From an uncultured Spirochaetaceae bacterium (GTDB taxonomy: Bacteria; Spirochaetota; Spirochaetia; Sphaerochaetales; Sphaerochaetaceae): DNA of 64,000 bases. This document shows positions 24,052-41,270 of this stretch, piece by piece. The stretch spans positions 1 to 64,000 of the forward strand of contig CALXKU010000005.1 of assembly GCA_944389025.1 (NCBI GenBank), written 5' to 3'. Position 1 is the first letter of the stretch, and each line of letters starts with the position of its first letter. Made by a program: the position numbers and the translations under genes. Below the pieces are notes generated by a model. The model made no database searches and was not told the DNA's origin. It saw only the letters and a program-made list of their open reading frames with translations.

Positions 24052-27000
24052 TCCTCAACAGGGCCGAGCAGATAATGATAGCTGGTGAAAATCTCATCGA
24101 TGAGCATTTCCAGCTCTGGAGGAAGCCCTTCAACATTCACAAGCCCCTCATTATCCAGCGTGCCTACAAGATCCTTCTTCTCATAGCGGACGAAAAGATT
24201 CTCACCGTCATAGAAGAAACCGTCATTCTCACTGTTATCGTAATCAGCTTTCAAGCTGAATAGCGTGAACTTCTTCCTGTAAGGTCCTCCGCTATATGGG
24301 CAGAAAGTCTCACAGTTACCGCACTCATTGCAGTATGCGTCAAGATGTATGATCTCATAAGGATCGGAGAACGCCTCCCAAGCTCTCATGTCTATGGCTA
24401 CATTCGCCCTGTTCGGACAGACATCAACACACTTTGAGCAGAGATAAGAGCATTCGAGACATCTGGAAGCCTCTCTCTTAAAGAAAGATTCATCATCAAG
24501 ACTCTCATCGGATGGAAGAATATGGCTCTTCTTTGCAAGAAGATCTCCAAAATACTTATCCTCCGCAGCTCTGAGCTCATCATCGCTCTCTTCATCCTCA
24601 TCTTCCTCATCTTCCTCATCCTCGTCATCATGGTGATGATGAGAACAGGAACATTCCTCATCGTCATGGTGGTGATGTCCGCATGAACACTCCTCTCCAT
24701 CCCCGTGATCATGGTGATGGCCACATGTGCACTCTTCATCATCCTCGTCATCATCAGCAATGTCCTCATACACCCTGTCTATGGCAGCTTCCACAGCTTT
24801 TCTTGCAGAGGCCATGCATTCAACGACGGTGCTAGGACCGGAGGCGGCATCTCCGATAAGATAGACCTTATCATCTTCGGTGCTGAAAGCAAGCTCCTCA
24901 AGTGCCTTCTCATCCGCAGTCTCACCAATAGCAAGAACAAGATAATCGCAAGGGAGCGTTATCTTTTCTCCAGTAGGGACAGGCCTTCTTCTGCCTGAGG
25001 AGTCCTTCTCCCCGAGTGCCATCTTCTCAAGAGTGAGGAGTCCGTCGGTAAAATCAACAGGATTATTCAGCCAGTTGAATACAATGCCCTCTTTAAGGGC
25101 CTCCTCATACTCCTCCCTGTCTGCAGGCATCTCGCCAAAGCTCCTCCTGTATACGATGTTCACACTCTCGACTCCGCCAATCCTCTTAGCAGCGCGCGAC
25201 GCATCCATTGCAGTGTTTCCCGCCCCGACGACAACGACATTTCTGCCAAGGGTTATCTTATCCCCCCTCTTGATACGCCGAAGCATGCTGATGGCGCTCT
25301 CCCTCTTACCATTGCCCGAGATTCCCATTTCCTTGGATTTTTCCGCACCGATAGCGACAAAGACATACTCAAATCCCTCATTCCTGAGTTCACTTATGCT
25401 CTTTTTAGTGGAGAAATGGAAATCAACACCGTTTTCCTCTATGAATGCAACATCCCGATCGATTATCTCGGATGGAATTCTGAATTCAGGGATCGTTGAT
25501 CTGCAGACACCCCCCGCGCTCTCATCTTTCTCAAAGACAGAAACTGCAAAGCCGGCACGGCGGAGGAAGAAAGCGGCTGCAAGACCTGCAGGGCCTGCTC
25601 CGATTACAGCGGCTTTTACATCACCTTCCTCAGGAGATTCCCAGAGTTCTTTCTTATACTCATTGAAATATGATGCAGCAAGACGTTTCTTTACATCCCT
25701 TATCCTGACAGGCCCTTCGTAATCCTTTCTTGTACAGTGGTTCTGGCACTCATGGGAGCAGATCCAGCCTGTAATGTTTGGAAGTGCGTTATCCAGGTAA
25801 ATAAGGGCAAGAGCCTCTGCCCCACGCCCCTCCCCCGCGAGGTTTACATAATCGGGAATCATCTGGTGGATTGGACAGGATTCCACGCAAGGGGCGATAA
25901 AGCAATCGAGAAGAGGAAGTTCCTGTCCAAGCTTTATGCTTCCATGTCCCTTGAAATCCTTTGAAGAGAATGCCTTCGGATCCTTTGCCTTCTCAGAAAG
26001 CGCTTCAAGCTTGGAAATATCTATTCCATCACTCTCCCACGAAGGAAGGGATGAGAGAATCCTCGCATCCTCCCTCAGGCGGTAATAGCCTCCCGGCTGA
26101 AGCATATCGGTTGCAACGGTTATAGGTCTTATACCTGTCTCAAACAGCTTTTCAATATTGAACGCGTTCGCACCACCGGAGTATGAGATAGGAAGCTTTC
26201 CATCAAATTCCTTTGATAGCTTCAATGCGACAGAGAGAGAAATCGGCATGAGAGCACGACCTGACATGTACATCTCGTCCCCAGGAAGGATTCCCTGATT
26301 GTTCACAGAGCCAAGAGTGTTCGTAAGCTTTACGCCAAAGCCTCTTCCATCTTCCTTTGCCTTGGCAACAAGACGCCTAAGCATCGCTATCGCATCACCA
26401 TACTGTAGATCATGCTCAAAGCTCTCTCGTCTTAACGTAAGATAATCGTATCCAAGGGCGTCAAGAATCTCACGAACGCCCTCATAGCCTAATAGTGTCG
26501 GATTGAGTTTGATGAAAGTATCAAGGCCTTTCTCATCAAGCATGTAGCTTGCTATCGCCTCGATCTCCTTAGGCGGACAGCCATGCATAGTAGAAAGTGT
26601 TACTGATGGTGAGATATTTGCACTGATTTTATCAATATTCTTTATTACATCACCTTCTTTTCCCTCATAGATGGTGCCTGAGAAGATATCATCTTCCATC
26701 ATCGCCTTAAGAGATGCCTTATATTCCTCGAAAAGACCGCTCTTCTTCGCATCCATCATCTGGGAGATGAAAGCATCCATTCTCTCACTCTTTATGCCCT
26801 CAAGGTTGTACCCTACGGACATGTTGAATATGAAGCCCGGCTCAGTCCAGCTATCATGGCTTACGATATCCAGGACATGCACGATGAACCACGCTTTAAG
26901 ATACTCATCAAACGCTTTCTCAAGACTGAGCTCTGTAGACCATTCGGTATTATACCCCTCGTCCCTCGCATCGATGCAAGGCTTGGCAATCTCAAGAGAG

Positions 27001-27266
27001 TCCATAATCTGAACGGTTTTAAGCTCTATGAACCTAGCTCCTACGAGATAGCTTGTTATGATATTCTGAGCAAGCTGGGTATGGGGACCAGCGGCAGGCC
27101 CAAGAGGTGTTTTCGCTCTCTGGTTGAAGACCCTTACACTCTTTTTCTCATCATCGGAGAAAAACATCTCCTTCTTGATGTTGAATATGCTTCCCTGATT
27201 ACGGAGCTCTCCCGTAATCCTCTCCAACAGTTCCTCAAACGGTACAGGTCTCATTATATCTGCCAT
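24048..27266 (-). CDS. ygfK: YgfK-family redox subunit (putative selenate reductase) with His/Cys-rich insert
   Basis: A 1072-residue oxidoreductase, slightly longer than E. coli YgfK (about 1030). The N-terminal half is a dihydropyrimidine-dehydrogenase-like TIM barrel (NTEWSTELSLEKAF, STMHGCPPKEIEAIA, KLNPTLLGYEG). A GltD-like part follows: Cys cluster, NAD/FAD motif GAGPAGLAAAFFLRRAG and second motif VVVGAGNTAMDASRAAKRIG. The C-terminus has two 4Fe-4S sets (CLECSYLCSKCVDVCP, CNECGNCETFCP). Between flavin and C-terminal domains, about residues 838-893, lies an insert of acidic runs with repeated CxCGHHH-type units. The start has AGGAG 7 nt upstream. First gene of the operon. Confidence 0.93.
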   Translation of the reverse strand: MADIMRPVPFEELLERITGELRNQGSIFNIKKEMFFSDDEKKSVRVFNQRAKTPLGPAAGPHTQLAQNIITSYLVGARFIELKTVQIMDSLEIAKPCIDARDEGYNTEWSTELSLEKAFDEYLKAWFIVHVLDIVSHDSWTEPGFIFNMSVGYNLEGIKSERMDAFISQMMDAKKSGLFEEYKASLKAMMEDDIFSGTIYEGKEGDVIKNIDKISANISPSVTLSTMHGCPPKEIEAIASYMLDEKGLDTFIKLNPTLLGYEGVREILDALGYDYLTLRRESFEHDLQYGDAIAMLRRLVAKAKEDGRGFGVKLTNTLGSVNNQGILPGDEMYMSGRALMPISLSVALKLSKEFDGKLPISYSGGANAFNIEKLFETGIRPITVATDMLQPGGYYRLREDARILSSLPSWESDGIDISKLEALSEKAKDPKAFSSKDFKGHGSIKLGQELPLLDCFIAPCVESCPIHQMIPDYVNLAGEGRGAEALALIYLDNALPNITGWICSHECQNHCTRKDYEGPVRIRDVKKRLAASYFNEYKKELWESPEEGDVKAAVIGAGPAGLAAAFFLRRAGFAVSVFEKDESAGGVCRSTIPEFRIPSEIIDRDVAFIEENGVDFHFSTKKSISELRNEGFEYVFVAIGAEKSKEMGISGNGKRESAISMLRRIKRGDKITLGRNVVVVGAGNTAMDASRAAKRIGGVESVNIVYRRSFGEMPADREEYEEALKEGIVFNWLNNPVDFTDGLLTLEKMALGEKDSSGRRRPVPTGEKITLPCDYLVLAIGETADEKALEELAFSTEDDKVYLIGDAASGPSTVVECMASARKAVEAAIDRVYEDIADDDEDDEECTCGHHHDHGDGEECSCGHHHHDDEECSCSHHHHDDEDEEDEEDEDEESDDELRAAEDKYFGDLLAKKSHILPSDESLDDESFFKREASRCLECSYLCSKCVDVCPNRANVAIDMRAWEAFSDPYEIIHLDAYCNECGNCETFCPYSGGPYRKKFTLFSLKADYDNSENDGFFYDGENLFVRYEKKDLVGTLDNEGLVNVEGLPPELEMLIDEIFTSYHYLLGPVEE

Positions 27267-27288
27267 TAGTCTTCTCCTATCTATTTAA

Positions 27289-27316
27289 ATTCTACCTTAT
27301 CTAAATGATGTGTCAA
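27289..27316 (-). promoter_or_regulatory. Promoter of the ygfK-ssnA-ygeY operon
   Basis: A consensus -35 TTGACA (27316-27311), 16-nt spacer and TAGAAT (27294-27289) precede ygfK by about 22 nt. The rest of 27317-27544 is AT-rich and holds no recognisable gene or RNA; the left border of the accessory island lies in or near it. Confidence 0.7.
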
Positions 27317-27544
27317 TCAAAATATCGCAACAAAGTGCAACATAAGAAAGGCGGTTTTAAGCCCGTTTGAATTCTATCATTCTGCAAATTCTCACTTTCT
27401 AAATATTATTTATTCGCTTTCGAGAAATAAGCTATTTTTCATCTATATATGCTGTGAAGAGGGAAAAAGAAATACTAAACGCGATATCAATACTCCTGAC
27501 ATTCAATCTTTTTTCGTCCGTAATTGAAGATAATAACAGCGTGT

Positions 27545-29908
27545 TTAAATGCACTTTAAATTGGAAAGGCAGGTTGTATTTTTATCAACAGGCAGATTAT
27601 TCAAAAGATTTATCAACTCATCTTCGTCCTTTAAACAACCAGCCCACCAGTTATTTTGCTGAGTTATGTAAATACATCTTTCTTCTGCCTTATTCCAATT
27701 AAAAGTATTTCCATCATCGTCAAATTCTTTTTTGGTAAAAATAACACCTTCTGCACCTAGGAAGTATTCATTAGCTCTGTAAGAAAACTTTATATACCCA
27801 TGCCCCTTCCAAATTTTAATTATAATCACCATATGCTTTTGAGAACTAGATACTGTGTCGCCCTCATCATTAATAAAAATACGGTTGTCATTATCAATAG
27901 TTACTCCATGTTTCTCCATCAGATCAAAAAATTCGGTAAGTTGTCTATTGTATTTAATGTTTTCATTAGAAGGGTATGTCCATATACCGGCATCAAAAAG
28001 AATATATTTTCTTTTATTACCTTCTTGAAAGTAGGGTTGGTAACCTTTCCATTTTATTTTGAAATCACCGTTGTTAGATTTTATCATCCATTTGATAAAC
28101 CACGAATTTTTAATTAAAGACTCTCGAACAGCTTTAGAAGATGGGGTATGGTCTTTTACCGATTCTAAATCTGTCATCACTATGTCTTTATCTAAATCAT
28201 TAGCAGATAGTAGATTACGGACTATATGACGATACCCATCTCCATAGTCTTTGTTGTTGATTCTTCCAAAAATTATGTTTTTCCAATGCTCTTTTGAAGT
28301 ATTAAAATAAGCTTCCTCCCAATCCCATGGCGACAGTTTTATGTATGCAGTAACAATATCTTGCTTGTAACAAGCTATTACACCGTCCTTACCAAACCAT
28401 TTATTAAAGTTTTCAGTATACTTTTTGAAGCTTTCCCATCCACCAATATACAGAAAATCAATCCTGCCATCAGCAAAAGCGGTATTTTCGGCTTCAATAA
28501 TATCAGCTCTTGTTACTTTTTCTTTTAATATGGCATTAGCTTTCTTGACTTCTTCCTTATATTGTCTTCGAGTCGATACATTATCAGAATCTTCATCTGG
28601 ACTGAGTAAAAATATATTTTCTTCTTTAGAGGCTAAGAATTTAATAATATTTGAAGCTTTTTTTCGTAAGGAATAAATCCATTTCAGTGCATAAGCAACA
28701 TTACTGCTATTCCAAATAAGATTTGCACAAACTCTAAGCCAATCTTCAAAATATTCTTTATTTTCAATTGGAACCACTATCAGATAAGAGAAAAAAAGAG
28801 CTGTGAGTTTTTGATCATGTTTTGAATAATCTAACAGGAAATCTAGTGTCCCATTATATCCTTTCTCTATTGCATACTCTTTTACATATTTTGGCAAACA
28901 GTGAAAGGAGTCAAAGATATTCTTTGCTCCCACTATGTTTAGCTTGTCAAAAATACCCAATATTGTGGCTCTATTTTCTGTAGTATTATATTTGAGATAC
29001 TCATCCTGACTGATGTATTCTGCACTAAAAAAGTCAAATGAAGAAACTTTATCTTTTTTTATTTTCTGGATACCTTCAAAAATAATGTTAACTATATACA
29101 TTATTATTTTTTCAAAAACTTGGTCTTTATTTTCAACTGTAATTACATCAAAAAGGCTTTCGGCAAAGCCGTCAAAATTATTTGCCGGAGAATTTCCCAT
29201 AGAAGCAGAATCACTTGATAAATAGGATGCCTTAAATATCTCAGAAGGTGTAAGAGATCTTCCTCGAGCATTCATTTTCCAGAAGATATTTTGAGGTAAT
29301 TCATGGCCTTTTGTATCAACTACTTCAAAAGTTATGTTATTGAGTTTCTTTCTTATATTATCACGTTCTATTCCAACCATAAAATTCAGTTTTGATTCTA
29401 TTATGCGATATGTTTTTAAAAGAGCACCTGCGGTAGGATCCCCAGAAATCTTATTGAAAATATCTATCCAATTATGCCAATCTGGGCTTAGGGGATCCTG
29501 TGCTTGCTCATAATCAATTAGCAAATTAATTAATTCGTTTGATGTTGATCTGATATCATATCTAAATCGTTTCAGGAATTCTTTTTCTCGCTTTTCTGCA
29601 GTCTGATAGCAATAGACGTAAAAGAGAAAAAGTGTAGTTAACCTTTGTTGTCCATCGACTGGATAAAAGAACGATATGTTATTGTGTTGCTCGATATTCC
29701 CATATACATAATCAAGATGAAGATGATTGCCTTTAATTAATGCATCAACTATTTCTTTTACAAACATATTTAGTACATGTTCGTCTCTTGGATTTGATCG
29801 TCCTTGTGCATAGTCTCTCTGGTATTCTGGAACTATAAAAATGCAGCTATTTAGAAGCTCTTGCAAAGTATATGTATGATTAAAATTTGTGTTTGCATCC
29901 ATATTCAA
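27545..29908 (-). CDS. DUF262 protein, large, unknown C-terminal region
   Basis: A 787-residue protein starting with a DUF262 domain: IVPEYQRDYAQG (the IPxYQRxYxW-like motif) and DGQQRLTTLFLF (about 83-94), residues implicated in NTP-driven activity of GmrS-like proteins. It lacks the HNH-type signature of GmrD; the C-terminal third (WTYPSNENIKYNR, HMVIIIKIWKGHGYIKF) is unfamiliar. DUF262 proteins are known from GmrSD type IV restriction and other anti-phage loci. It overlaps the upstream DUF262 gene by 4 nt and is visibly AT-richer than the flanking chromosome. Low GC and strong Lys/Asn/Ile usage indicate transfer. Confidence 0.82.
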   Translation of the reverse strand: MNMDANTNFNHTYTLQELLNSCIFIVPEYQRDYAQGRSNPRDEHVLNMFVKEIVDALIKGNHLHLDYVYGNIEQHNNISFFYPVDGQQRLTTLFLFYVYCYQTAEKREKEFLKRFRYDIRSTSNELINLLIDYEQAQDPLSPDWHNWIDIFNKISGDPTAGALLKTYRIIESKLNFMVGIERDNIRKKLNNITFEVVDTKGHELPQNIFWKMNARGRSLTPSEIFKASYLSSDSASMGNSPANNFDGFAESLFDVITVENKDQVFEKIIMYIVNIIFEGIQKIKKDKVSSFDFFSAEYISQDEYLKYNTTENRATILGIFDKLNIVGAKNIFDSFHCLPKYVKEYAIEKGYNGTLDFLLDYSKHDQKLTALFFSYLIVVPIENKEYFEDWLRVCANLIWNSSNVAYALKWIYSLRKKASNIIKFLASKEENIFLLSPDEDSDNVSTRRQYKEEVKKANAILKEKVTRADIIEAENTAFADGRIDFLYIGGWESFKKYTENFNKWFGKDGVIACYKQDIVTAYIKLSPWDWEEAYFNTSKEHWKNIIFGRINNKDYGDGYRHIVRNLLSANDLDKDIVMTDLESVKDHTPSSKAVRESLIKNSWFIKWMIKSNNGDFKIKWKGYQPYFQEGNKRKYILFDAGIWTYPSNENIKYNRQLTEFFDLMEKHGVTIDNDNRIFINDEGDTVSSSQKHMVIIIKIWKGHGYIKFSYRANEYFLGAEGVIFTKKEFDDDGNTFNWNKAEERCIYITQQNNWWAGCLKDEDELINLLNNLPVDKNTTCLSNLKCI

Positions 29909-31680
29909 ATCCCCTCTTTAATTAAGGTATCGACAATATCTTTCAAATAAATGTCGCCTATTTCTCGTGTCCACATCGATTCTTCTGCAGTGCTGTGGAA
30001 ATCAGATTCTATCACATTAAAAATCATTGCTGTTACAATAGGTAGTTCTTCTGTTGAAGAATATATTTGCCATGTTACAGCTCTCTTTTTTTCTTCAAAA
30101 TCGTTGCATCCGATGCTTTTGTTGATTGATTCCTGTAAGAGACATAGGTTTCGTATTGAGAAATATTTCCATGCATCTGCGCTGTCTTGCTCTGATGATG
30201 GCATTTCATATTTCCATTCACCATTATGATTTGTAACAGAACCTCCACATTGTAATGCCCAAATGCAATTCTCAATTATTTTAAGTTTATTTTTGATCTG
30301 TAATTCGGGGGTATCATCAGTATTGCATAAATCAATACAATATTCATAAAAGGATTCATTTTTCTTTCTTAGTTCATTTTTGTTCTTTATTAGAACATCA
30401 GTAAGAAGTTTCTTGCTTGATATTGAAGCTTTTGCATTAATATGCTCAAGATTATAAGTATTATTTCTATATGCGTTATAATTAAACCTGTAATTATGTT
30501 TAATGCTCTTCAAAGCATTATGTAGTAATAAAATCTTTGTAATATCTCTATTGTCATGACCATAAATCAAAGTAAAATTATTTTTCTCTGTTTCAGCATC
30601 TTCCTTTCTAAGATACAATCGATCTGGAACAATTTTGCCGATTGAAGTATGTATTTGTTCATGAAGATAAGAATCAATTAATTCTATTATCTGTTCATTT
30701 AGACAATATTCATTTAATTCTATTTCTTTCTCAAATAATGTCTTACAGAGCAATAAAGCCTCTTTATGGTCTGGGTGACAAGAGATAAAACCAAACAGGT
30801 TATAGAGACTAATATCAGAATATACACGCTGAAAAACTTCAAACATAAATCCTAACCTATCAATAAAGTCTTTTGGAGTATGTTTAGGGACGATCCACTC
30901 AGAAAGTTTATTAAAAATGAAATTGGGGTTCTTTTCATATTCTTCTTTTATAGTTTTTGGGCTATTCACGCCACAAAAAATCAAAGCAAATACTTCCAAA
31001 AAGAAATCCATCCTTGTAGAATAATATCGAAGGAGCTTGGTCTTATCATCCTGGCTGAAAAAGTAGTAAAAATCATCATCCTGTAATATGGATTCAATGC
31101 GGTTCCAAATACCAATGAAATTAATTCTCTTACATTCCTCTTTGTATTCTGTAAGGCAGTAAGCTTTGAATATCTCAGCAGGAGAGAGTGGTATTTTCCC
31201 ATCGTTTAGGCGCAAGAATATCTTTTCTGCTTCTTTATTTTCAACTTTCAAAGTGCATACTATGAAAATACATTCTTTAAGTTTAGTTTTTAATTTTGAA
31301 TTATCTATGATTCTTATTTTTGCTTCGATGGTTTCTTTAGCTATTTTTAGAAAATGTTTATCAATATTGTTTCTCTTATTATTTTTTAGAGACTCACATA
31401 TTTCCTTGTTTTCCCAATTAAGTGCTTCCCCTATTAAAGAGATTGTCGTAAGTCGTTGCTGGCCATCCACAATATCAGGTTGCTCTTTCGTTTTTTCCCC
31501 TGTACCTAAATTAAAAATAATTGGCTGAAGGCAGTATTTTTGTTCATCGTTATAAATATCATCAATAAGCTCTTCAATATTTTCTTTTCTCCAACGGTAT
31601 CCTCTTTGAAAATGCGGAATTTCGAATCCTTTATTATACTCTAAAAAGACTTCTTCAACTGTTCTAATGTTAGTATTCAT
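29905..31680 (-). CDS. DUF262 protein with C-terminal HNH/DUF1524-like nuclease region
   Basis: A 591-residue protein. The N-terminus carries the DUF262 motifs IPHFQRGYRWRKENIEELIDD (cited in parts: HFQRGYRW) and VDGQQRLTTISL. The C-terminal part has YNLEHINAK, then FSIRNLCLLQESINKSIG and FEEKKRAV, which follow the pattern of DUF1524 His-Me-finger nucleases (EHI..., GNLxLL...N...., FxxKR). It is therefore a fused GmrSD-like protein, in contrast to its downstream partner, which has only the DUF262 part. AAAGGA lies upstream of the ATG. It lies 20 nt after the WYL regulator gene, in one operon. AT-rich, probably transferred. Confidence 0.84.
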   Translation of the reverse strand: MNTNIRTVEEVFLEYNKGFEIPHFQRGYRWRKENIEELIDDIYNDEQKYCLQPIIFNLGTGEKTKEQPDIVDGQQRLTTISLIGEALNWENKEICESLKNNKRNNIDKHFLKIAKETIEAKIRIIDNSKLKTKLKECIFIVCTLKVENKEAEKIFLRLNDGKIPLSPAEIFKAYCLTEYKEECKRINFIGIWNRIESILQDDDFYYFFSQDDKTKLLRYYSTRMDFFLEVFALIFCGVNSPKTIKEEYEKNPNFIFNKLSEWIVPKHTPKDFIDRLGFMFEVFQRVYSDISLYNLFGFISCHPDHKEALLLCKTLFEKEIELNEYCLNEQIIELIDSYLHEQIHTSIGKIVPDRLYLRKEDAETEKNNFTLIYGHDNRDITKILLLHNALKSIKHNYRFNYNAYRNNTYNLEHINAKASISSKKLLTDVLIKNKNELRKKNESFYEYCIDLCNTDDTPELQIKNKLKIIENCIWALQCGGSVTNHNGEWKYEMPSSEQDSADAWKYFSIRNLCLLQESINKSIGCNDFEEKKRAVTWQIYSSTEELPIVTAMIFNVIESDFHSTAEESMWTREIGDIYLKDIVDTLIKEGI

Positions 31681-31700
31681 GTTCGAGAATCCTTTGTTAT

Positions 31701-32699
31701 TTAGCTATATTTTGTTATTATAGCATTGAGATCTTCTTTTACAAGTTTCCTCATACTTTCAGGCTTTATGAGAGTAGCACTTGAGCCCATACTCATAAGC
31801 CATTTCTGAAGGCCATAAGAACTAGCTGTTTTAATTGTAAACAGATAGTTACCATCTTCTTGCTGTTTGAATGTGACGCTATCCGGCCAAGCTTTCTGAA
31901 TCTCATACCATCCCTGGTATTCATCAATCAAAACTTCAGCGATGAATGGATCATCTGTCCGATAAAAAGGGAATGGATCTTCGAAATCATTGCCCTTCTC
32001 CATCTCTGGATATTTTTCTTTTTTAAGCTTTATCAATCTGATGATTCTTGATAATGCCAACAGCTGCCTCTGTCCATAGTTGTTGAGAACCTCAGCATAA
32101 ACTGCACCATCTTGTACAATAACCTTTAACGGATAGATATCATATTCCACATCACACTCTGAGTTTCTACTTTCATAAACTATATGGCATTTTATTTTCT
32201 TCTCTGATGTTTCAAGGAGAAGAAGCAATGTTTTGAAGTACTCTGGTGAAAGCTTGAAGAAGGAGCCGAACCTTGAGAAAAGAGGATTGATTTCACTCTT
32301 AGTATTCGGATTTATAACCATTCTGAGTCTGGATATGAAATCAGAACCGCACATCTCCATAAGCGGAGATGTTGAAGATACTGTTTCTAGGACAAAGTTA
32401 AGGAAACGGATGTCATCTTCGCTCAGAACTTCGCCGACAATGCCACTCTTCCAGCGAGCAGCCGCATCAGACTCAATCTTGTAAAGCATCTTCCTGCTTC
32501 CATCACTTGATTTCTCCGTGTAATATGCAAAACCCATCTCTTCCAGGATATCAAGCACATTAAAAGCTGATGAGCGGTTATTGACTCCAAGTATGTCCAT
32601 TATTTCATATATTGTGCATCCTCTTTCCCCTCTTTCGGCTATCAAGGAGGCAACAGCAAATATCTTGGTAAATCGTGACCACACTTTTTCTTCTTTCAT
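31701..32699 (-). CDS. WYL-domain transcriptional regulator (first copy)
   Basis: A 332-residue regulator with an N-terminal winged helix-turn-helix (RGCTIYEIMDILGVNNRSSAFNVL region) and a WYL domain (about 150-230; YDIYPLKVIVQDGAVYAEVLN) with a C-terminal WCX-like extension. WYL proteins sense nucleic acid or nucleotide ligands and control many defence loci (for example BrxR-like and CRISPR regulators). The start at 32699 has AGGTGA before it; the open frame begins at a GTG 17 codons earlier without support. It heads the DUF262 operon and is divergent from the ankyrin gene across about 70 nt. A distinct paralogue lies at 36248-37252. Confidence 0.85.
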   Translation of the reverse strand: MKEEKVWSRFTKIFAVASLIAERGERGCTIYEIMDILGVNNRSSAFNVLDILEEMGFAYYTEKSSDGSRKMLYKIESDAAARWKSGIVGEVLSEDDIRFLNFVLETVSSTSPLMEMCGSDFISRLRMVINPNTKSEINPLFSRFGSFFKLSPEYFKTLLLLLETSEKKIKCHIVYESRNSECDVEYDIYPLKVIVQDGAVYAEVLNNYGQRQLLALSRIIRLIKLKKEKYPEMEKGNDFEDPFPFYRTDDPFIAEVLIDEYQGWYEIQKAWPDSVTFKQQEDGNYLFTIKTASSYGLQKWLMSMGSSATLIKPESMRKLVKEDLNAIITKYS

Positions 32700-32770
32700 T
32701 TTCATCACCTGCTCAAAGATTATCACACAACTGTACAATATTTTAAACACTTGATGTTTATCATGAAGCT

Positions 32771-34711
32771 ATGAATAGAGAAATAGAGAAGTATTACATT
32801 ACGCACATTGATAAAAATCAATCTGAGTATTTCATAAGAGAAGCTCTTGTTTCAGGAATCAGGTCTGACAACGCAAAACTTACAAGAAAGGCTGCTAGTG
32901 CATTACATTTCCGTGGCGACTTCTTTGGGCATTCTTCTCCACTGGTATTTGCCATTAAGGAGATGGCTTCTGCTGGAGTAATAAGAGCTCTTACGGAGGC
33001 AGGATATAAGCTTTCCAGGCCTTGCCACGATCTTACACCATTCGATGGCTCTCCTGAGAATCTTGCAGATCTATTGATGGAAATAAACGGAAAAACAAAA
33101 GAAGTAGCTTTACAGGTTTTGGCTACAGATATAGCCTACTTCTTCCATGTGATAAGGACTAATTACTCCTGCTACAGAATTCCTTGTAACATAGACTCAG
33201 AAGATAGATACAAACCTTGTTTCTGGAATTATCTTGATCAATGGATGTCAGATTTCATCAAGCTTCTGATAGATGAAAAGTGTACTGAAATTATGGACTC
33301 ATATTTTATCAGAAGCATCATCGAGAATGCAGAACTGAAAAAAGCATTTGATACCCTTATTGAATTGCTCGGAAAAACCTTTTGTAAGGATGATCTCATC
33401 TGGTACATTAATATTGCTGTCAGCCATGATAACGAGCATGCATTTGAGAAGCTTTTTGAATACAGTCCATCTCTAATAAAAGAAGTGAATTGTTATCCAT
33501 CCTCAAGCAGGAAGATCCTCTCTACCCTCTTTGATAAAGGAATCCTAGCACCAGGAACAAATGAGGGTTTCAATGCATTCGTTCCATTCATTTCATATGG
33601 AAAAACTGACAAGGATATTCTCTGTTCAATCGTTCACCCGTCATATCCGAGACGTACCATTGAAGATGGAGTTACGCCTCTTATGGTTGCTGTGAAGAAT
33701 GAGGATTTCCCAGTCGAGCTGTATAAACTCCTGATTACATCACCAAATGACATCAACATGCAGGATGAAGATGGGAAGACGGCTCTGCATTATATGGCAG
33801 AGACAGAATACCCTGAATGCATAGAAACCCTTCTCAAACTTGGTACAGATCCATTCATCCGAGATAACAAGGGAAACAATGTCCTCCACATCCTTGCAGA
33901 AAACAAGGGAGGACTCTCTTTCGATATTTTCAGCGATTGCATCTCTCTCCTTCCTAAAAAGCTTCTCACAATGGAAAACAGTAACGGAATGACACCAATT
34001 ACCCTGTTTTTCCAAAGGCTGACAGGAACAGAGGAAGATCCCTATAAGAAACTTTCTTTTAATCAATTTCTTGAACAGTATCTTGCCTCTCCGGAGTCTA
34101 TGAATGGTAACCTCCTTATAGGTGGATCAAACAAAGAGACGAGACTGAAGACGCTCTCTTTGGTAAGAGATCAGGTCATCCGACAACTCAATAACAGGGC
34201 AATTGAATTTGAATTGATTGCCGACAAATCACCTGAAGAAACAGTGTATATGCTTGAGAAGCTTGCAGATGAAGAAATTGAAAATAATACTTCATCTCCC
34301 CATCTTATCATCATTGACGAGCTATATGATTGTTTGAGTCCAGAACTTGGAGTACGGTTTGAATATGCAGCGCATCAGCTAGATGGCAATGCAGATGTCC
34401 TTATCATAGCAGCATCAAAGTTCAGCTCAGCGGATATAATCACAGATATAATCCAGCATGCATTTCCCTACAGGATTACGTCAAAGCAGTCTAGTGACCT
34501 GACCAGCAAGATATTCATTGGAGAGGATTACGCTGCATATATTGGACAAGAAGAAGTCATCATCAAAGGCTTCGTCGATGACCTCCTGTTAAGCAATCTT
34601 AAATCAGACGGAATAGAAAACGAGGAAATGGATGAGGATTCCATCGCCCTTGCTGAAGCCGAAAGAATCCTAGAAAAGCACCTCTCCGCCTTCAAGGAGC
34701 TTGCAAAATGA
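32771..34711 (+). CDS. Ankyrin-repeat protein fused to degenerate FtsK-like ATPase domain
   Basis: A 646-residue protein. Residues about 50-82 and 298-415 contain ankyrin repeats (DGVTPLMVAVKN, DGKTALHYMAE, KGNNVLHILAE). Residues about 445-605 follow the layout of the FtsK/SpoIIIE motor: a strand plus a ruined P-loop (LLIGGSNKETR instead of GxxGxGKS), a Walker B-like HLIIIDE (511-517), AASKFSSADIITDIIQ and FPYRITSKQSSDLTSKI, then GQEEVIIKGFVDD. The C-terminus is acidic. Lacking the Walker A Lys-Ser pair, it probably does not hydrolyse ATP. Its -10 box (TATCAT, 32759-32764) lies 6 nt before the ATG with no Shine-Dalgarno. It overlaps the Fic gene by 4 nt, suggesting that the two products act together. 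Confidence 0.8.
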   Translation: MNREIEKYYITHIDKNQSEYFIREALVSGIRSDNAKLTRKAASALHFRGDFFGHSSPLVFAIKEMASAGVIRALTEAGYKLSRPCHDLTPFDGSPENLADLLMEINGKTKEVALQVLATDIAYFFHVIRTNYSCYRIPCNIDSEDRYKPCFWNYLDQWMSDFIKLLIDEKCTEIMDSYFIRSIIENAELKKAFDTLIELLGKTFCKDDLIWYINIAVSHDNEHAFEKLFEYSPSLIKEVNCYPSSSRKILSTLFDKGILAPGTNEGFNAFVPFISYGKTDKDILCSIVHPSYPRRTIEDGVTPLMVAVKNEDFPVELYKLLITSPNDINMQDEDGKTALHYMAETEYPECIETLLKLGTDPFIRDNKGNNVLHILAENKGGLSFDIFSDCISLLPKKLLTMENSNGMTPITLFFQRLTGTEEDPYKKLSFNQFLEQYLASPESMNGNLLIGGSNKETRLKTLSLVRDQVIRQLNNRAIEFELIADKSPEETVYMLEKLADEEIENNTSSPHLIIIDELYDCLSPELGVRFEYAAHQLDGNADVLIIAASKFSSADIITDIIQHAFPYRITSKQSSDLTSKIFIGEDYAAYIGQEEVIIKGFVDDLLLSNLKSDGIENEEMDEDSIALAEAERILEKHLSAFKELAK

Positions 34712-35124
34712 TTCGGCTCACAAAAGAACAGATTCTTTCAATATACAGAATGCTTATCGATAAGACCGGAGGCTCTCCCGGAGTGATAAACGAATCGTTG
34801 CTTGACTCCGCCCTCAACAACATCTGGCAGACATTTGATGGAGTAGAACTGTATCCTACACTGGAAGAAAAAGGTGCAAGGCTCGGGTACTCACTTGTGA
34901 GCAATCATTCTTTCAAAGATGGAAACAAGCGGATTGGGATTCTTGCAATGCTGACATTCCTATCTCTCAATGGAATTGAAATCAATTGTACTGATACAGA
35001 GATTGTTGAAACGGGATTTACTCTTGCATCCGGACTAATGGGTTATGAAACGCTGTTTTCCTGGCTGACAGAACATTGCAATACCAATGATCCAGAAAAA
35101 CAGAACACGAACTTCAGATTGTAA
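34708..35124 (+). CDS. Fic/Doc-family protein
   Basis: A 138-residue protein of the death-on-curing type: after ILSIYRMLIDKTGGSPGV the active-site loop reads HSFKDGNKRIG (about 71-81), which keeps His, Asp, Gly-Asn and Lys-Arg of the Doc/Fic motif. Doc-type enzymes inactivate translation factors by phosphorylation, Fic enzymes by AMPylation; the reaction here is unknown. No phd-like antitoxin gene is visible. The gene is coupled by ATGA overlap to the ankyrin-FtsK-like gene, whose product might control it. Confidence 0.88.
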   Translation: MIRLTKEQILSIYRMLIDKTGGSPGVINESLLDSALNNIWQTFDGVELYPTLEEKGARLGYSLVSNHSFKDGNKRIGILAMLTFLSLNGIEINCTDTEIVETGFTLASGLMGYETLFSWLTEHCNTNDPEKQNTNFRL

Positions 35125-35159
35125 GAACAAAGTCAAAAGCACAGGCAGGAGGTGATGTA

Positions 35160-35690
35160 ATGCACTTATCAGGCAGGATGATATTGGTAAAATTTCTTGA
35201 GATATATGAAGACAGCTTTACCATACCAGACTATCATGGAGGATTCCATTGGCACATTTTCAATGTCCTTCGTTATGGATTTCCATTCAGCTCCAAATCA
35301 AATGACTTCGGGAGATTCATTCTTAAGGGAAATCGCATAGTCGATGGTTATCAGAGGCTTGTTGCAACAGCAATGCATCTCAAGACTTTCTCTGCTATAA
35401 GTCCAGAGTTCTTCTTTTCAATTATCAAAAAGGAGAATTTCTTCAGCAGACAAGCCTGGAAGGTGGTTAACCGGGCAGGTAACGGTCTTTTGATAAACGA
35501 ACTAGAGAAAATACTCAAAGCAAAACTCACTATATATGAACTTGATGACTATGATGATGAAGAGGACACATACTGGAAACTCAAGATAGGAGAAACCAGG
35601 AATCCAGAGATAAAAAAGATCCGCATCCGTATTATTACATGGAGACCCATCCATGCTGGAGCAGAGAATATTCTGTATCTCCGGCAATAG
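35160..35690 (+). CDS. Short degenerate DUF262-like protein
   Basis: A 176-residue protein that looks like the N-terminal part of a DUF262 domain with key residues replaced: IPDYHGGFHW where IPxYQRxYxW is usual, and VDGYQRLVATAM where DGQQRLTT is usual. A very strong AGGAGG 7 nt before the ATG argues that it is expressed, not a dead fragment. It lies 35 nt after the Fic gene and is probably in the same transcript. A decoy, regulator or inhibitor of the two full DUF262 proteins would fit, but that is inference. Confidence 0.6.
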   Translation: MHLSGRMILVKFLEIYEDSFTIPDYHGGFHWHIFNVLRYGFPFSSKSNDFGRFILKGNRIVDGYQRLVATAMHLKTFSAISPEFFFSIIKKENFFSRQAWKVVNRAGNGLLINELEKILKAKLTIYELDDYDDEEDTYWKLKIGETRNPEIKKIRIRIITWRPIHAGAENILYLRQ

Positions 35691-35843
35691 ATAACAACTA
35701 TTTCAGGCTTTTGACTCCTGAAAAATTCGAAATGTTACGCATATCGACTAAAGATATCTGATAGACATAGTGTGATATCAATTCACATGTATCTCGATTT
35801 ATACAGATCGGGAGTACAATGAAAATAAATTGGAGGTTTTGCC

Positions 35844-36095
35844 ATGGCAAACTACTATTGCAAGAATTGTGGAGAAAAGTTTTCAAGTGTTTCAGCACTG
35901 ACAATCAACAAATGTATCAAACATCCTGCAGGCCCAGGGAAAGGGCCTCATGAGCTGTACGAAGGAAGTGAGAAATCTCAGTATACCTGTAAATACTGTG
36001 GCCAGAAATTCCCAAGTATCAGAGCAATGACAATAAACAGATGCATACGCCATCCTGATGGCCCCGGAAAGGGAAACCACTCTCCTGCTTTATAA
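35844..36095 (+). CDS. Small protein with two tandem zinc-finger-like repeats
   Basis: An 83-residue protein made of two near-identical units of about 40 residues, each with CxxC, a Cys about 18 residues later and a His-Pro four residues further (YCKNCGEKF...CIKHPAGPGKG and YTCKYCGQKF...CIRHPDGPGKG). This is a known type of bacterial zinc-ribbon-like repeat, often found duplicated. TTGGAGG stands 7 nt before the ATG. The gap 35691-35843 holds a possible -10 (TACAAT, about 35814) but no other gene. Function unknown. Confidence 0.75.
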   Translation: MANYYCKNCGEKFSSVSALTINKCIKHPAGPGKGPHELYEGSEKSQYTCKYCGQKFPSIRAMTINRCIRHPDGPGKGNHSPAL

Positions 36096-36247
36096 GACCG
36101 TAAGTCTTAATATCATTGACAGAAAATGATTAACCCTCGTGCTAGTCATTCGCACCATCCGCTGCTGTACATTTTTCATCGTTCAATCTTTTGAGATTAC
36201 AAAGCATAATCGGGAATGAGGCGTCCTTGAATTTGATTTAGGGTTTC

Positions 36248-37252
36248 TCAGCTTTTGCTTTCCAAGACGGAATTGAGTTTGAGTCCAGCAGCAAGCGTCT
36301 CATTAATGTCTTTCCTCACCCACTCTGGAGATAAGACTTTGACATGAGGAGTACGTTCAAGAATCCATCTTTTCAAATCGAAATACGAATGGGTTCTTGT
36401 TTTCATTACCAATATACCGTCCTCTTTTTCTTCAAGTGTTGTTGATTCCGGCCAATTGATTGCCTTCTCAAAAGGAGCTTGATCCGCATCAATTTCAACT
36501 GTGACTTCCGTTTCATCAATGTCACAGATGAAACCGAATGGATCATCAAGGAGTTTGACTACATCTGTATCATCAGGCAGAATCTCCCCTTCAAAAATAC
36601 GCTCTATTTTCTCTATACGCTCAAGAGCTATCACCCTTAGTCCATTGAATCTGTTTTTAACATAGGCATAGCTATCGCCCTTGTGGATAAAAATGATGAG
36701 GGGAAACACCGAGTAGCTGAAGGTCCTCTTTCCTCCAGCATTCCGATATTCCAACGTGACCCATTTCTTTTCTTTTATCACTTTCAAGAGTTCTGATGTG
36801 ACTGTACTGAGTTTCTTGTTATCGGTGTTCTTGCGCAAAGTCTTCGTGTTGACTATCAGAACCGGCTTACGCTGTCCATTCTCAATCAGAGCACCACGTT
36901 CTGCGGCCATCAGCTTGAGCTTATTGAAAAGCCTTCTTGCATCTATTTCAATACCGGGAACAGAATCAGAGGCATTGATCATATAATTGAATACAGCCTT
37001 CTCTTCGTCAGAGAAATCCAAGGATGGAAGATATTCAGCGAATGCCCTATCCGCATGATAGCGTTTCTTCTTGGGATTATCAGGATCAGGCATGTCATAA
37101 ATCGGGAACATCATTGAATCGAGCTGATTTAGAATTGAAAAGACAGCCCGAGGAGTCTTATCCAGTGCTTCCGATAGTTCTTCGATAGTAGCCCCACCGT
37201 CACGATGTATCAGCCTTGTTGCAATGATGTATTCATCCAGATAATTTTTCAT
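36248..37252 (-). CDS. WYL-domain transcriptional regulator (second copy)
   Basis: A 334-residue regulator related in layout to the one at 31701-32699: N-terminal helix-turn-helix (DGGATIEELSEALDKTPRAV) and a WYL domain (WVTLEYRNAGGKRTFSYSVF, then FPLIIFIHKGDSYAYVKN), with a C-terminal extension. It is divergent from the AAA+ gene across 70 nt, repeating the regulator-versus-effector arrangement of the first WYL gene. The start is the only upstream ATG. The gap 36096-36247 shows nothing recognisable. Confidence 0.84.
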   Translation of the reverse strand: MKNYLDEYIIATRLIHRDGGATIEELSEALDKTPRAVFSILNQLDSMMFPIYDMPDPDNPKKKRYHADRAFAEYLPSLDFSDEEKAVFNYMINASDSVPGIEIDARRLFNKLKLMAAERGALIENGQRKPVLIVNTKTLRKNTDNKKLSTVTSELLKVIKEKKWVTLEYRNAGGKRTFSYSVFPLIIFIHKGDSYAYVKNRFNGLRVIALERIEKIERIFEGEILPDDTDVVKLLDDPFGFICDIDETEVTVEIDADQAPFEKAINWPESTTLEEKEDGILVMKTRTHSYFDLKRWILERTPHVKVLSPEWVRKDINETLAAGLKLNSVLESKS

Positions 37253-37322
37253 TTTCTCATTTTGCTGTGAACAAAATCTTCACTCTTACAGGATAGCATG
37301 AAGCTGAAAGGATGGAAAACAT

Positions 37323-39317
37323 ATGCTTTACTACAAATTCAATCTTACAAATGAACATAGAGAGCAGCTTGCAAAAAATGATGACAGTGAATTCGTGAGT
37401 AAGGTCAATTCAGCAATCGGAGAAGTGAACAACAAGCTGGAAGGGAAAGCTTACGCTCTTATTAGTTCTGTAACAAGGAAAGGCAGAAAGCTTCGTTGCT
37501 GTGCAGAAATACTCGATTACTCCATCACGCCAGAAGCCATCGGTCAGATGATAAAAGATGAGTTAGATGAAGAATATGAAATAGATAATATCGCAGAAAC
37601 CACACTCTCACGTTTTGATTCCCTCGCCGACGATGCTTTTAATTATGATCTGGCGCATAGACAGTTTCCAGGTGGTCTTATGAGCAGTGATGAATATTCT
37701 TACATCTTCAGGCGCGGATATGCCAAGGAGATTCTGATCCAAAAGAAAATGAATAAGAAAACGGCTATGCGAAACGTAGCCGAATTCTGGACGCATATCA
37801 GTGGACTGGCTGAGGAAATCGAGAGGATATTTCTAGTAAAGACATCTTCGTATAAAGGCAATCCCGTACACTATGCGATTGAGATTGAGAGTACTAAAGA
37901 CAGGATAGAAGTACGTAATCTCCTTATTTCCTGTCTGCTTGAACAGAACAGAACCATCCTCAGAAGAGTTACTGAGATAAAACTCAATACAGTTGCTGAG
38001 TTATCCACAGAAAGATTATCCGAATTCTTTGAACTGCAGAAATGCGGCATAGTTGTCGTTTCTCTGTACAAGAGTTTTGACAGAGGTGATTCTCTCAACG
38101 ATATGCATCGGGCAATGGATGATCTGGTTGCACAAATAAAAGGAGTAAAAAGGGATGTACTGTTTGTCTTTGAATTCTCAAAAGCTGCAGAACCATCATG
38201 GAAGTACATAAAGAGTTCGCTGAAAGAAATCAATTTCATAGAACTGAAAGAGAAGAATCTATCAAACGCGGAGTCAAGGAATTTCATTGATAAACTTGCA
38301 GCATCTGATAACATCAAAGACCGGACATCACTCATTAGATTGATTGATGAGTCCTCATACTCAGTAGGCGATCTCAAGGCAATCTATTCATCATGGTACG
38401 ACAAGCATCTTTGTTCTGCAGTCTTTCCTGCTTACTCGGATCTTTCGGGATATAGTATTAATGACATAAAGCAGAATAAAGGAAATGCCTATCAGAAGCT
38501 TTCAAATATGATCGGGCTAGATGATGTTAGAGCTGTAATAACAAGTGCAATTGATTACTCGCGTGTCCAGAGCCTATATGAGAAAGCTGGCATAGCCAAT
38601 TCTGAAATGACACGTCACATGGTCTTCTATGGCAATCCAGGAACAGCCAAGACGACATGCGCCAGGCTATATGCTCAGATAATGAAAGACAATGAACTTC
38701 TGAAGAAAGGACATCTTATCGAAGTCGGAAGGAAGGACATTGTAAGCAAATATCTTGGCGGGACAGCGCCTTTGATCAAAGAATACTTTGAAAAAGCTGA
38801 CGGCGGTGTGCTTTTCATAGATGAAGCCTATTCCCTTGTCGATGACAAGAAAGGTCTCTACGGGGATGAGGCAATAAACACAATCGTACAGGAAATGGAG
38901 AATAGAAGGGATTCTGTTGTCGTGATTCTTGCGGGATATCCAGAAGAGATGGAAACTTTCCTGTCACGGAATCCGGGACTGAGAAGCAGAATCAGTTTCC
39001 ATGTCCATTTCAGGGATTATACACCCAAAGAACTCTTATCCATTCTGAAACTGTTCATCAGCGAAGCGGGAATGGATCTTGAAGATGCAGCAACACCAAA
39101 GCTTCTGAATATCTTCAAAGAAGCTACAGAACAAAAAGACTTCGGCAATGGAAGATTCGCACGTAATCTCTTTGAACAGGCCAGACTGAGACAGGCTAGC
39201 AGGGTCCTCCATATCGCATCACCTTCCGATGCTGATATCCGTACTCTCTCTGCTGATGATTTTATCGAACCAGAAAGGAAAGAAGAGAAAAGACGACATA
39301 TAGGATTTGTCTTCTAA
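37323..39317 (+). CDS. CbbX/SpoVK-like AAA+ ATPase with long N-terminal region
   Basis: A 664-residue AAA+ ATPase. The C-terminal half has Walker A GNPGTAKT (437-444), a pore-loop region (SKYLGGTAPLIKEYFEKA), Walker B VLFIDE (496-501) and an arginine-finger segment (NPGLRSRI), the pattern of CbbX, SpoVK and EccA proteins, which remodel protein complexes as hexamers. Residues about 230-365 resemble a degenerate first AAA module and lid (VLFVFEFS... then SVGDLKAIYSSWYDK). The first 230 residues are unfamiliar. AAGGATGG lies upstream of the ATG. It is divergent from the second WYL regulator and presumably its target. Confidence 0.86.
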   Translation: MLYYKFNLTNEHREQLAKNDDSEFVSKVNSAIGEVNNKLEGKAYALISSVTRKGRKLRCCAEILDYSITPEAIGQMIKDELDEEYEIDNIAETTLSRFDSLADDAFNYDLAHRQFPGGLMSSDEYSYIFRRGYAKEILIQKKMNKKTAMRNVAEFWTHISGLAEEIERIFLVKTSSYKGNPVHYAIEIESTKDRIEVRNLLISCLLEQNRTILRRVTEIKLNTVAELSTERLSEFFELQKCGIVVVSLYKSFDRGDSLNDMHRAMDDLVAQIKGVKRDVLFVFEFSKAAEPSWKYIKSSLKEINFIELKEKNLSNAESRNFIDKLAASDNIKDRTSLIRLIDESSYSVGDLKAIYSSWYDKHLCSAVFPAYSDLSGYSINDIKQNKGNAYQKLSNMIGLDDVRAVITSAIDYSRVQSLYEKAGIANSEMTRHMVFYGNPGTAKTTCARLYAQIMKDNELLKKGHLIEVGRKDIVSKYLGGTAPLIKEYFEKADGGVLFIDEAYSLVDDKKGLYGDEAINTIVQEMENRRDSVVVILAGYPEEMETFLSRNPGLRSRISFHVHFRDYTPKELLSILKLFISEAGMDLEDAATPKLLNIFKEATEQKDFGNGRFARNLFEQARLRQASRVLHIASPSDADIRTLSADDFIEPERKEEKRRHIGFVF

Positions 39318-39358
39318 AGCAGCGTAAAGGATATAAGAAGCCATACACATGTTTCTTT

Positions 39359-39703
39359 TCACAGTATGCTTTTTGGCTTATCTTTATCAGCCATCTCTTC
39401 CTTAACTTATGGCAAATTGAGCTTCGTCAATAAATATGAAATACTGCTTATCAGAAGCAGTCATATGCTGTCGTATATAGTCTTTGAGGTTATCTGGATT
39501 ACGAAGTTCACTGTAATCATCATCGTCAAGAGGAATCTTTATGATGCAGTCTTCATCAGTTCCATGTGCCAAAAAATAATCAGAAAAAAGGTTGAAAAGC
39601 AGATAGGATTTTCCACACCTTCTTACACCGGTGTGACCTTAATCATACCATTTCCTATCTTAGATATAAGTCTGTCCATGTATTCCGGCCTATCAATTAT
39701 CAT
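39359..39703 (-). pseudogene. Remnant of an AAA_14-type ATPase gene
   Basis: The minus strand encodes the N-terminal part of a second ATPase of the AAA_14/DUF4143 class. Starting at ATG 39703 it reads DRPEYMDRLISKIGNGMIKV, then one base is missing where GTC-ATC-ACC is expected. After the shift it continues TGVRRCGKSYLLFNLF (Walker A) and YFIFIDEAQFAIS (Walker B), followed by a second frameshift, KEEMADKDKPKSIL and a stop at 39359. The rest of the gene is missing. It lies between the AAA+ gene and an intact relative. Confidence 0.8.
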
Positions 39704-39709
39704 ACTCAC

Positions 39710-39822
39710 TCCATTTTATATTTTGTGAATTATTACAAGTTATATAAAGCATAATGGAATGGAGTAATCATGCAAGGCTATTTTATATTTTCTGTAATTT
39801 TACCAATTATATAAAATACAAA
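39710..39822. repeat. Two imperfect AT-rich repeats upstream of the ATPase remnant
   Basis: A segment of about 34 bp containing TTTTATATTTT and ATTATATAA occurs twice, 67 bp apart (from 39714 and 39781). Read on the minus strand each holds a near-palindromic GTAAnAATTnAC. They lie where the promoter and operator of the broken ATPase gene would be, parallel to the repeats at 41174-41215. Confidence 0.5.
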
Positions 39823-39847
39823 AATCTGTATTCTTTTATACAAGTTA

Positions 39848-41140
39848 TCAAGGTGCTAATAGTGAAATCGGGATTTCATATACTCCATCGGGACGCCTTC
39901 GGGCATATTTACCTGCGGTTATCACCATCAGAAATGATGGCTCTTTCATACTTGAGTAATTCATCTTCTCCTTTATTTTAAGAAGATTTCTGGCACCTTG
40001 ATCGACCCTTTCAGGATTGAATAGCTTCACCTCAAACATCGCCCATCTCTGATCCCTGAGCTCTATTACGGCATCAGCTTCCAAACCTTTGTAATCCCGA
40101 TAATGGAATACATTACCATTCATAGATGTCGCATATACCCTCAAATCTTTTATCACGTAAGACTCGAAAAGAAATCCAAATGTCTTAAAATCCTTGATTA
40201 ATCCCCCAGGGGAAAGACCTAGAGAAGCAACAGCTAACGATGGCTCGGAAAGATGACGTGTAGGCATTCCCTGCACTCTTACTTTTGATCTTACACTTGG
40301 TGCCCACGCTTCAAGGTCTTCTGTAATGAACATCGACTCTAAAAGAGCAAGATATTTATTAAACGTCTCCTCGTTGAATAATGTATCCTCATTACTGCTC
40401 AAATCTTTTCGAATCAAATTTTTCGAAGCCTGTGTCGAGACATTCCTGGAATAGGAGCGCAAAAGTCTTCTGACTTCACTTGGATTTTTTCTAAGTCCCA
40501 TCTCCTCCAATTTTCTCTGAACATCAACATTTATCAGTTCATCAAGAAGAATATAAGGTATCTCCAAAGCATCTTCATCCGTATCATCAATTGAATTCGG
40601 CCATCCTCCACGGCAAAGGGCCAATGCGGCATCCTCAATGCTGCGATCCGAGTGCTCACTTATATCCATATTTCCATCTTCGAAGAGTTTTGACAAAGAT
40701 ACCTTTCCATAAGAAAACCCTGTTTCATAAGAGCTCATCGTATGCATCTTTAAATTTGCAATACGACCGAAACCCGAATGGAATATCTCACTTTTCGACT
40801 TTTCATCAATAGGGGTTGAAGATCCTGTTAAAATGAACTGACCTCGCTTACCCCTGTTATCGACCTCACGTCTTACAGCATCCCAGAGTCTCGGGGCATT
40901 CTGCCATTCATCAATCAAGAGTGGAGCTTCCCTGTTAAGAACATCTGAAGGCATCGCATTCGCCCTTGCGATAAGATCCTTTCCCTCTTCTGAATTATCT
41001 AGCGTAACCTCTGATTTAGCATACTGTCTTGAAGATGTGGTTTTGCCGCACCATTTTACCCCAGTAACCAAAACAGCACCTGAAAGCCTCAACAGTTTTT
41101 CAAGCTGTTTATCAGATATTCTTTCCCTGTATTTCTCCAT
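39848..41140 (-). CDS. AAA_14/DUF4143 ATPase
   Basis: A 430-residue protein with Walker A GVKWCGKTTSS (about 28-38), Walker B LLIDEWQNAP and a C-terminal DUF4143 domain. The C-terminal motif GLEADAVIEL followed by FEVKLF has the E/D...ExK spacing of PD-(D/E)XK nuclease folds, which is typical of this class. The family (COG1373) is common in anaerobes, often in multiple copies and near mobile or defence genes; the function is not established. A -10 box (TATCAT) lies 7 nt before the ATG without a Shine-Dalgarno, and paired repeats lie just upstream. Confidence 0.85.
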   Translation of the reverse strand: MEKYRERISDKQLEKLLRLSGAVLVTGVKWCGKTTSSRQYAKSEVTLDNSEEGKDLIARANAMPSDVLNREAPLLIDEWQNAPRLWDAVRREVDNRGKRGQFILTGSSTPIDEKSKSEIFHSGFGRIANLKMHTMSSYETGFSYGKVSLSKLFEDGNMDISEHSDRSIEDAALALCRGGWPNSIDDTDEDALEIPYILLDELINVDVQRKLEEMGLRKNPSEVRRLLRSYSRNVSTQASKNLIRKDLSSNEDTLFNEETFNKYLALLESMFITEDLEAWAPSVRSKVRVQGMPTRHLSEPSLAVASLGLSPGGLIKDFKTFGFLFESYVIKDLRVYATSMNGNVFHYRDYKGLEADAVIELRDQRWAMFEVKLFNPERVDQGARNLLKIKEKMNYSSMKEPSFLMVITAGKYARRRPDGVYEIPISLLAP

Positions 41141-41173
41141 AGTGTTAATGATAGAACAAAATAATTAAGAAGT

Positions 41174-41215
41174 CTAGTATGGTAAATTCACCACACCTAG
41201 TATGGTAAATTTACC
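41174..41215. repeat. Paired operator-like direct repeats
   Basis: CTAGTATGGTAAATTCACC (41174-41192) and CTAGTATGGTAAATTTACC (41197-41215) are two 19-bp copies differing at one base, spaced 23 bp start to start (about two helical turns). The second contains the perfect palindrome GGTAAATTTACC. They overlap the -35 region of the ATPase gene, so binding would probably control it. Confidence 0.7.
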
Positions 41216-41270
41216 CGATTAGAATCTATTTTTAAGACTTAAGGTCAAGTATTTTCATTTTTGTTTACTT

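Follow-up and report, generated by a model that had tools for sequence, protein, structure and literature searches.

Doc, the toxin of type II Phd-Doc modules, phosphorylates EF-Tu. Such modules have been described in P1, Salmonella (PMC9207808) and Enterococcus faecalis (PMC13034048). Phd of Salmonella binds Doc through its C-terminal helix, and this tail alone suffices for neutralisation (PMC9207808); Doc proteins carry the motif HxFx(D/N)(A/G)NKR (PMC13034048). The closest precedent for the gene pair reported here is PanA with Phd-C, together with Doc, from Corynebacterium doosanense; SUMO-Phd-C neutralises Doc, and the Panacea domain beside Phd-C has been proposed to act as a sensor (PMC10440598). 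GmrSD proteins and WYL regulators (BrxR/CapW-type), for their part, are typical constituents of defence loci (PMC9122601, PMC9122588).

The locus described here lies within a window of 64,000 nucleotides, by which we mean the whole stretch of DNA analysed, on contig C5 of the 2.3 Mb genome of a gut spirochaete. Like the GmrSD/DUF262 and WYL loci it encodes two GmrSD_N proteins and a WYL regulator, but it also contains a gene for an ankyrin-pseudoFtsK protein followed by doc, and members of these kinds occur in no known system of this type. Its features are the following.

27545..29908, minus strand: GmrSD_N (DUF262) protein 2, overlapping protein 1 by 4 bp (PF03235, 2.3e-24)
29905..31680, minus strand: GmrSD_N (DUF262) protein 1 (PF03235, 1.3e-32; PADLOC similarity to HEC-06, Orf5 and SspE)
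31701..32750, minus strand: WYL/WCX regulator WYL_1, divergent (Pfam)
32771..34711, plus strand: ankyrin-pseudoFtsK-tail ORF, 646 aa (ORF list; full-length orthologues in genomes G009, 72%, and G161, 63%)
32771..34030, plus strand: ankyrin/helical solenoid region, residues 1-420 (Pfam repeats, AF2 model, Foldseek)
34106..34588, plus strand: pseudo-FtsK domain, residues ~446-606 (profile, PDB profile match, Foldseek, alignment)
34124..34147, plus strand: degenerate Walker A GSNKETRL, residues 452-459, with R458 at the Lys position (alignment)
34301..34321, plus strand: Walker B-like HLIIIDE, residues 511-517, the acidic pair apparently not conserved across the family
34628..34708, plus strand: predicted Phd-C-type Doc-binding tail, residues 620-646 (tail profile; purifying selection)
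34694..34699, plus strand: AAGGAG, the likely ribosome-binding site of doc, inside tail codons
34708..35124, plus strand: Doc toxin gene, 138 aa, motif HSFKDGNKR intact (Pfam Fic, 1e-15; TIGR01550, 58.2 bits against a cutoff of 38.65; PDB Doc 9vzc, 2.3e-9)
36248..37252, minus strand: WYL_2, a second WYL regulator (Pfam; comparison with genome G158)
37323..39317, plus strand: CbbX/SpoVK-type AAA ATPase adjoining WYL_2, a pairing also seen in G158 (Pfam, homologue comparison)

The last ~27 residues of the 646-aa protein (MDEDSIALAEAERILEKHLSAFKELAK) are a predicted Doc-binding tail of a Phd antitoxin, and with doc as the next gene an unconventional antitoxin is the best interpretation of the protein. 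As in Phd-Doc modules, the two genes occur in this order, the doc start and the antitoxin stop share 4 bp (ATGA), the Doc motif is present, and the upstream product ends in a C-terminal helical tail; unlike in those modules, the carrier of the tail is 646 rather than ~80 aa long and has no Phd/YefM DNA-binding domain, PF02604 not being found in the window protein, in which ankyrin repeats are the sole domain called by Pfam. The resemblance to PanA consists in a Phd-C-like C-terminal element on an unrelated fold, although that of PanA neutralises Doc whereas that of the window protein is recognised by sequence profile only. The carriers differ as well: a Panacea domain in PanA, none being found by Pfam in the window protein, as against ankyrin repeats and a dead FtsK motor here, and carriers of the window kind (ankyrin-pseudoFtsK, or a WYL regulator) lie inside a GmrSD locus. 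A previous sequence-only reading of the ORF placed an FtsK-like region correctly at residues about 445-605 but missed residues 620-646, which look like a Phd-type tail and are not FtsK-like.

The tail profile has a single match in the window genome, at the end of the 646-aa protein (E 2.7e-14), and when all frames of more than 120 aa in 139 genomes are searched its matches below E 1e-3 are five fused carriers only. Among pseudoFtsK proteins the tail is present in all four that are followed by doc and in none of the seven that are not. The window tail bears a modest likeness to the published tails of distant Phd proteins, in that 2 of 915 control C-termini outscored it against the E. faecalis Phd C-peptide and 22 of 915 against the Salmonella Phd peptide; a search of the PDB with the tail profile returned designed helical proteins only. 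The tail has a dN/dS of about 0.10 in comparison with G009 and 0.25 with G161, against 0.74 and about 2, respectively, in the adjoining linker. The dS of the tail is also lowered, and the ribosome-binding site of doc within its codons could be a partial source of the C-terminal conservation. Both this reduction and the position of AAGGAG within the KEL codons would fit a tail that is a mere relic of the 3' end of phd, fused to the upstream ORF and kept for the ribosome-binding site and translational coupling of doc. We consider such a relic very improbable, given that conservation reaches back ~20 residues from the ribosome-binding site (AERILxKH) and that synonymous changes have occurred in this stretch, that the tail is found on unrelated carriers, and that a functional doc without antitoxin should be lethal, there being no second Phd-type tail in the genome.

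A survey of the 27 best related Docs in the 139 family genomes places this arrangement in context. Each of the 27 shares 4 bp with the ORF before it, and that ORF always ends in the tail; the carrier is a short Phd-type ORF in 21 cases and something else in six. The short carriers are about 80 aa long (80-115 by the longest reading), and the ~80-aa ORFs match PF02604 at a borderline level (29.6 bits against 29.8 for L126). The other carriers are the ankyrin-pseudoFtsK fusion in the window, G009 and G161, a separate pseudoFtsK in G075, a WYL_2 regulator in G158, and a mini-ORF of 46 aa in G018. The WYL_2 gene of the window has no tail and no doc after it, whereas its G158 homologue has both. 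The WYL_1/pseudoFtsK loci (GmrSD/WYL type) house all six non-Phd carriers and none of the 21 Phd-Docs (three of the latter, L094, L136 and L138, being on contigs under 5 kb), although these co-occurrence counts are not independent because most of the grafted Docs form one clade. In the Doc tree this clade (86/94) contains five of the six grafted Docs and sits among the Phd-Docs, with the WYL-linked Doc as sister to the pseudoFtsK-linked ones and the placement of the G018 Doc uncertain. The simplest history is that Doc entered loci of this kind once and that the carrier later changed at least once.

The remainder of the 646-aa protein, whose start is common to its orthologues, consists of two main parts. 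The fusion to ankyrin repeats proposed from sequence inspection holds, the Pfam repeats being best at residues 304-378, and an AF2 model of the full-length protein (pLDDT 69) gives ankyrin matches in Foldseek; a paralogue of the ankyrin region without the FtsK part is present at G000:C22. A Pfam search with the single sequence gave no FtsK match, and we therefore used profiles. A profile built from a five-member alignment of the C-terminal part matched 128 of the 139 family genomes at a threshold of E<=1e-5, usually through a single ORF of FtsK size (E 1e-8 to 1e-18, length about 800-1200 aa); the window genome's own FtsK was matched at E 2.1e-13, and in the PDB the E. coli and P. aeruginosa FtsK proteins were found at E 1.4e-6 and 1.3e-5 (2ius at E 1.4e-6). 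Foldseek matched an AF2 model of residues 421-646 (pLDDT 64.5, core 70-86; pTM 0.62) to TcpA 6o1x (1.7e-6) and FtsK 2iut (1.1e-5), then to 6t8g and EssC, with TM-scores of about 0.5, so that the predicted fold class is clear and its details are not. The C-terminal part descends from an FtsK motor, and the expectation of an FtsK/HerA-type fold with FtsK-type motors (TcpA, FtsK, EssC) among the best structural matches is borne out. The window protein has in common with the FtsK/SpoIIIE and TcpA motors the fold and the region from Walker B to SADxIT, but it lacks Walker A, and the insert that separates the Walker A and Walker B positions is shorter; compared with FtsK/SpoIIIE it also lacks the C-terminal gamma (KOPS-reading) domain, and the linker and tail come after the motor domain instead.

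The equivalent of the P-loop is LLIGGSNKETR (residues 448-458), without GK[ST], as had been pointed out for GGSNKETR in the sequence-only reading, and inspection of the whole 646-aa protein revealed no intact P-loop elsewhere. In the alignment the Walker A Lys position is occupied by Arg in 11/11 relatives of 17-75% identity, and this is one of only five invariant columns in alignment A6 (L29, G32, R38, S133, S159). The quoted HLIIIDE and SADIIT motifs are both present, but the Walker B acids appear not to be kept across the family, IDE of the window being replaced in several relatives (INE, IKD, IND, IDH, LDD). The segment from Walker A to Walker B is about half its FtsK length. The domain is thus predicted to be without ATP hydrolysis. 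It has a dN/dS of about 0.18 against both G009 and G161, and this purifying selection indicates that it is functional, a true pseudo-ATPase and not a product of decay. A decaying gene without function, which the lost catalytic motifs and a broken GmrSD fragment nearby (35160-35690) might suggest, is extremely improbable: orthologues as distant as 38% identity keep the frame open, dN/dS is 0.15-0.2 in both the ankyrin and the FtsK-like parts, the Arg is fixed in the relatives, and the selection test disfavours it. Clear descent from FtsK also invites the idea that the domain joins or mimics the cell's FtsK hexamer, either inhibiting division or luring phage proteins directed against FtsK. This we regard as improbable, as the Walker A-to-B region that holds the DPK segment is missing along with the gamma domain, interface residues are not known to have been retained, and few residues are invariant.

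Relatives with the C-terminal part are found in G009 (72%), G025 (38%), G075 (as two genes), G018, G161, G158, G149, G154, G152 and G031, and among 395 genomes of the class the pseudo-FtsK family is limited to two genera of one Spirochaetales family. A profile search of genome contigs with a four-member alignment yielded three loci only, and no members were found in viral contigs or, by tblastn, in plasmids and phages. One candidate relative, G304 (L184), turned out to be an ordinary FtsK and was dropped. We note that G018 also encodes a near-complete FtsK motor of 377 aa (L087:9442-10575; Pfam FtsK, E 3.8e-24), amid housekeeping genes, in which the Walker A Lys is replaced by Gln (GSGNSGQL). 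Two mini-FtsKs (L089:6980-8050 and L090:6732-7832) have alpha and motor domains and an intact P-loop but no gamma domain; they lie near WYL genes, and each overlaps a small Cys-rich ORF. G071 and G195 have WYL-linked mini-FtsKs with intact P-loops, and a GmrSD-like gene (IIDGQQRLTT motif, identified by eye) accompanies the one in G195. A series leading from these intact forms through the Lys-to-Gln motor of G018 to the short Arg forms is possible as judged from the sequences. The short Arg forms, a pseudo-ATPase family of FtsK descent in which the change from Lys to Arg is fixed, offer a handle on why dead P-loop folds persist.

The ankyrin-pseudoFtsK and doc genes are flanked on one side by WYL_1, whose true start is probably slightly downstream of the listed GTG, and the two GmrSD_N genes, and on the other by a zinc-finger gene, WYL_2 and the AAA ATPase. 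The window genome has only two WYL_1-like genes, both in the window. Wherever the contig of a relative is long enough, a WYL_1 homologue is found near pseudoFtsK, and in most relatives so are GmrSD-like genes. PADLOC reported no complete named system in the window, only single-domain similarities, which together with the GmrSD and WYL context make phage defence a likely role; its mad8 match (E 0.004) and the matches to Legionella Ank models, which fall far below cutoff, were set aside as chance or repeat matches. The GC content of 0.32-0.43 over 26-42 kb (26000-42000), compared with about 0.48 on both sides, suggests that this is probably an acquired island.

A simpler role, that of addiction only, would have Doc and its tail stabilise the GmrSD/WYL island, such that loss of the locus kills the cell, with the ankyrin-pseudoFtsK serving GmrSD otherwise, as scaffold or regulator. 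The low GC content accords with this, a tail at the 3' end could be a passive arrangement without sensing, and in G025 and G149 pseudoFtsK, WYL_1 and GmrSD occur together without a nearby Doc, so that the role of pseudoFtsK does not depend on Doc there. We nonetheless judge addiction only to be rather unlikely; a normal Phd-Doc would suffice without replacement of Phd, and the tail has been put on members of the locus with the carrier switched (WYL in G158, pseudoFtsK elsewhere), a pattern suggestive of coupling to the state of the carrier.

The best reading, and probably the correct one, is that of a modular antitoxin and probable guard that connects Doc with a sensing part inside a defence locus of GmrSD type. 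A cassette of tail, ATGA and doc would have been joined to the 3' end of an ankyrin-pseudoFtsK gene already resident in the locus, with loss of the Phd DNA-binding domain, and transcription would be controlled by the divergent WYL regulator. The tail would fold on the translationally coupled Doc and keep it inactive; that the tail neutralises Doc is very probable. The ankyrin solenoid and dead FtsK motor would form the sensing or docking part within the GmrSD/WYL locus, and a sensing or guard role for them has about an even chance of being right. When this part is bound, displaced or degraded, presumably by foreign DNA or phage invasion, Doc would be freed to phosphorylate EF-Tu, and growth would stop; phage as the trigger falls a little short of an even chance. 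The earlier description of the protein as a 'recruited scaffold or sensor' is compatible with the modular antitoxin.

More speculatively, and in our view less likely than not, the dead translocase may be an immune guard that keeps watch over an invader or over the GmrSD complex while its grafted tail holds Doc, the tail-ATGA-doc cassette may be a plug-in that makes any gene before it a Doc antitoxin, and the fixed Arg may reflect binding of a new ligand or partner. These loci bear on what triggers chromosomal Phd-Doc type toxins and on the role of the non-neutralising parts of modular antitoxins. Nature here provides the same toxin and tail on Phd, pseudoFtsK or WYL, and the same carriers also without both; with such clean natural variants, whether the carrier sets the trigger becomes directly testable.

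Several other features of these regions deserve mention. The fragment at 35160-35690 is GmrSD_N-like, with IVDGYQRLVA in place of DGQQRLTT and no Pfam match, and is probably a broken copy. The zinc-finger gene (35844-36095) encodes a double zinc-finger protein of 83 aa that is single-copy in the genome, and its homologues adjoin pseudoFtsK genes in L034, L035, L081, L085 and L086. Large ankyrin proteins with N-terminal regions of no known type cluster in the same loci (L034:62-8516, L037:1-6800, L081:2894-6942). Ankyrin-only paralogues of the N-terminal region (L038:8083-10050, L043, L046 and similar) lie 3' of a NUDIX gene and a gene of no known type (~85-100 aa), often with overlap, forming another recurrent ankyrin operon. 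Finally, a large oxidoreductase-like ORF at 24048-27266 carries an inserted Cys/His/acidic repeat (CSCGHHHHDDEE...) that is perhaps metal-binding.
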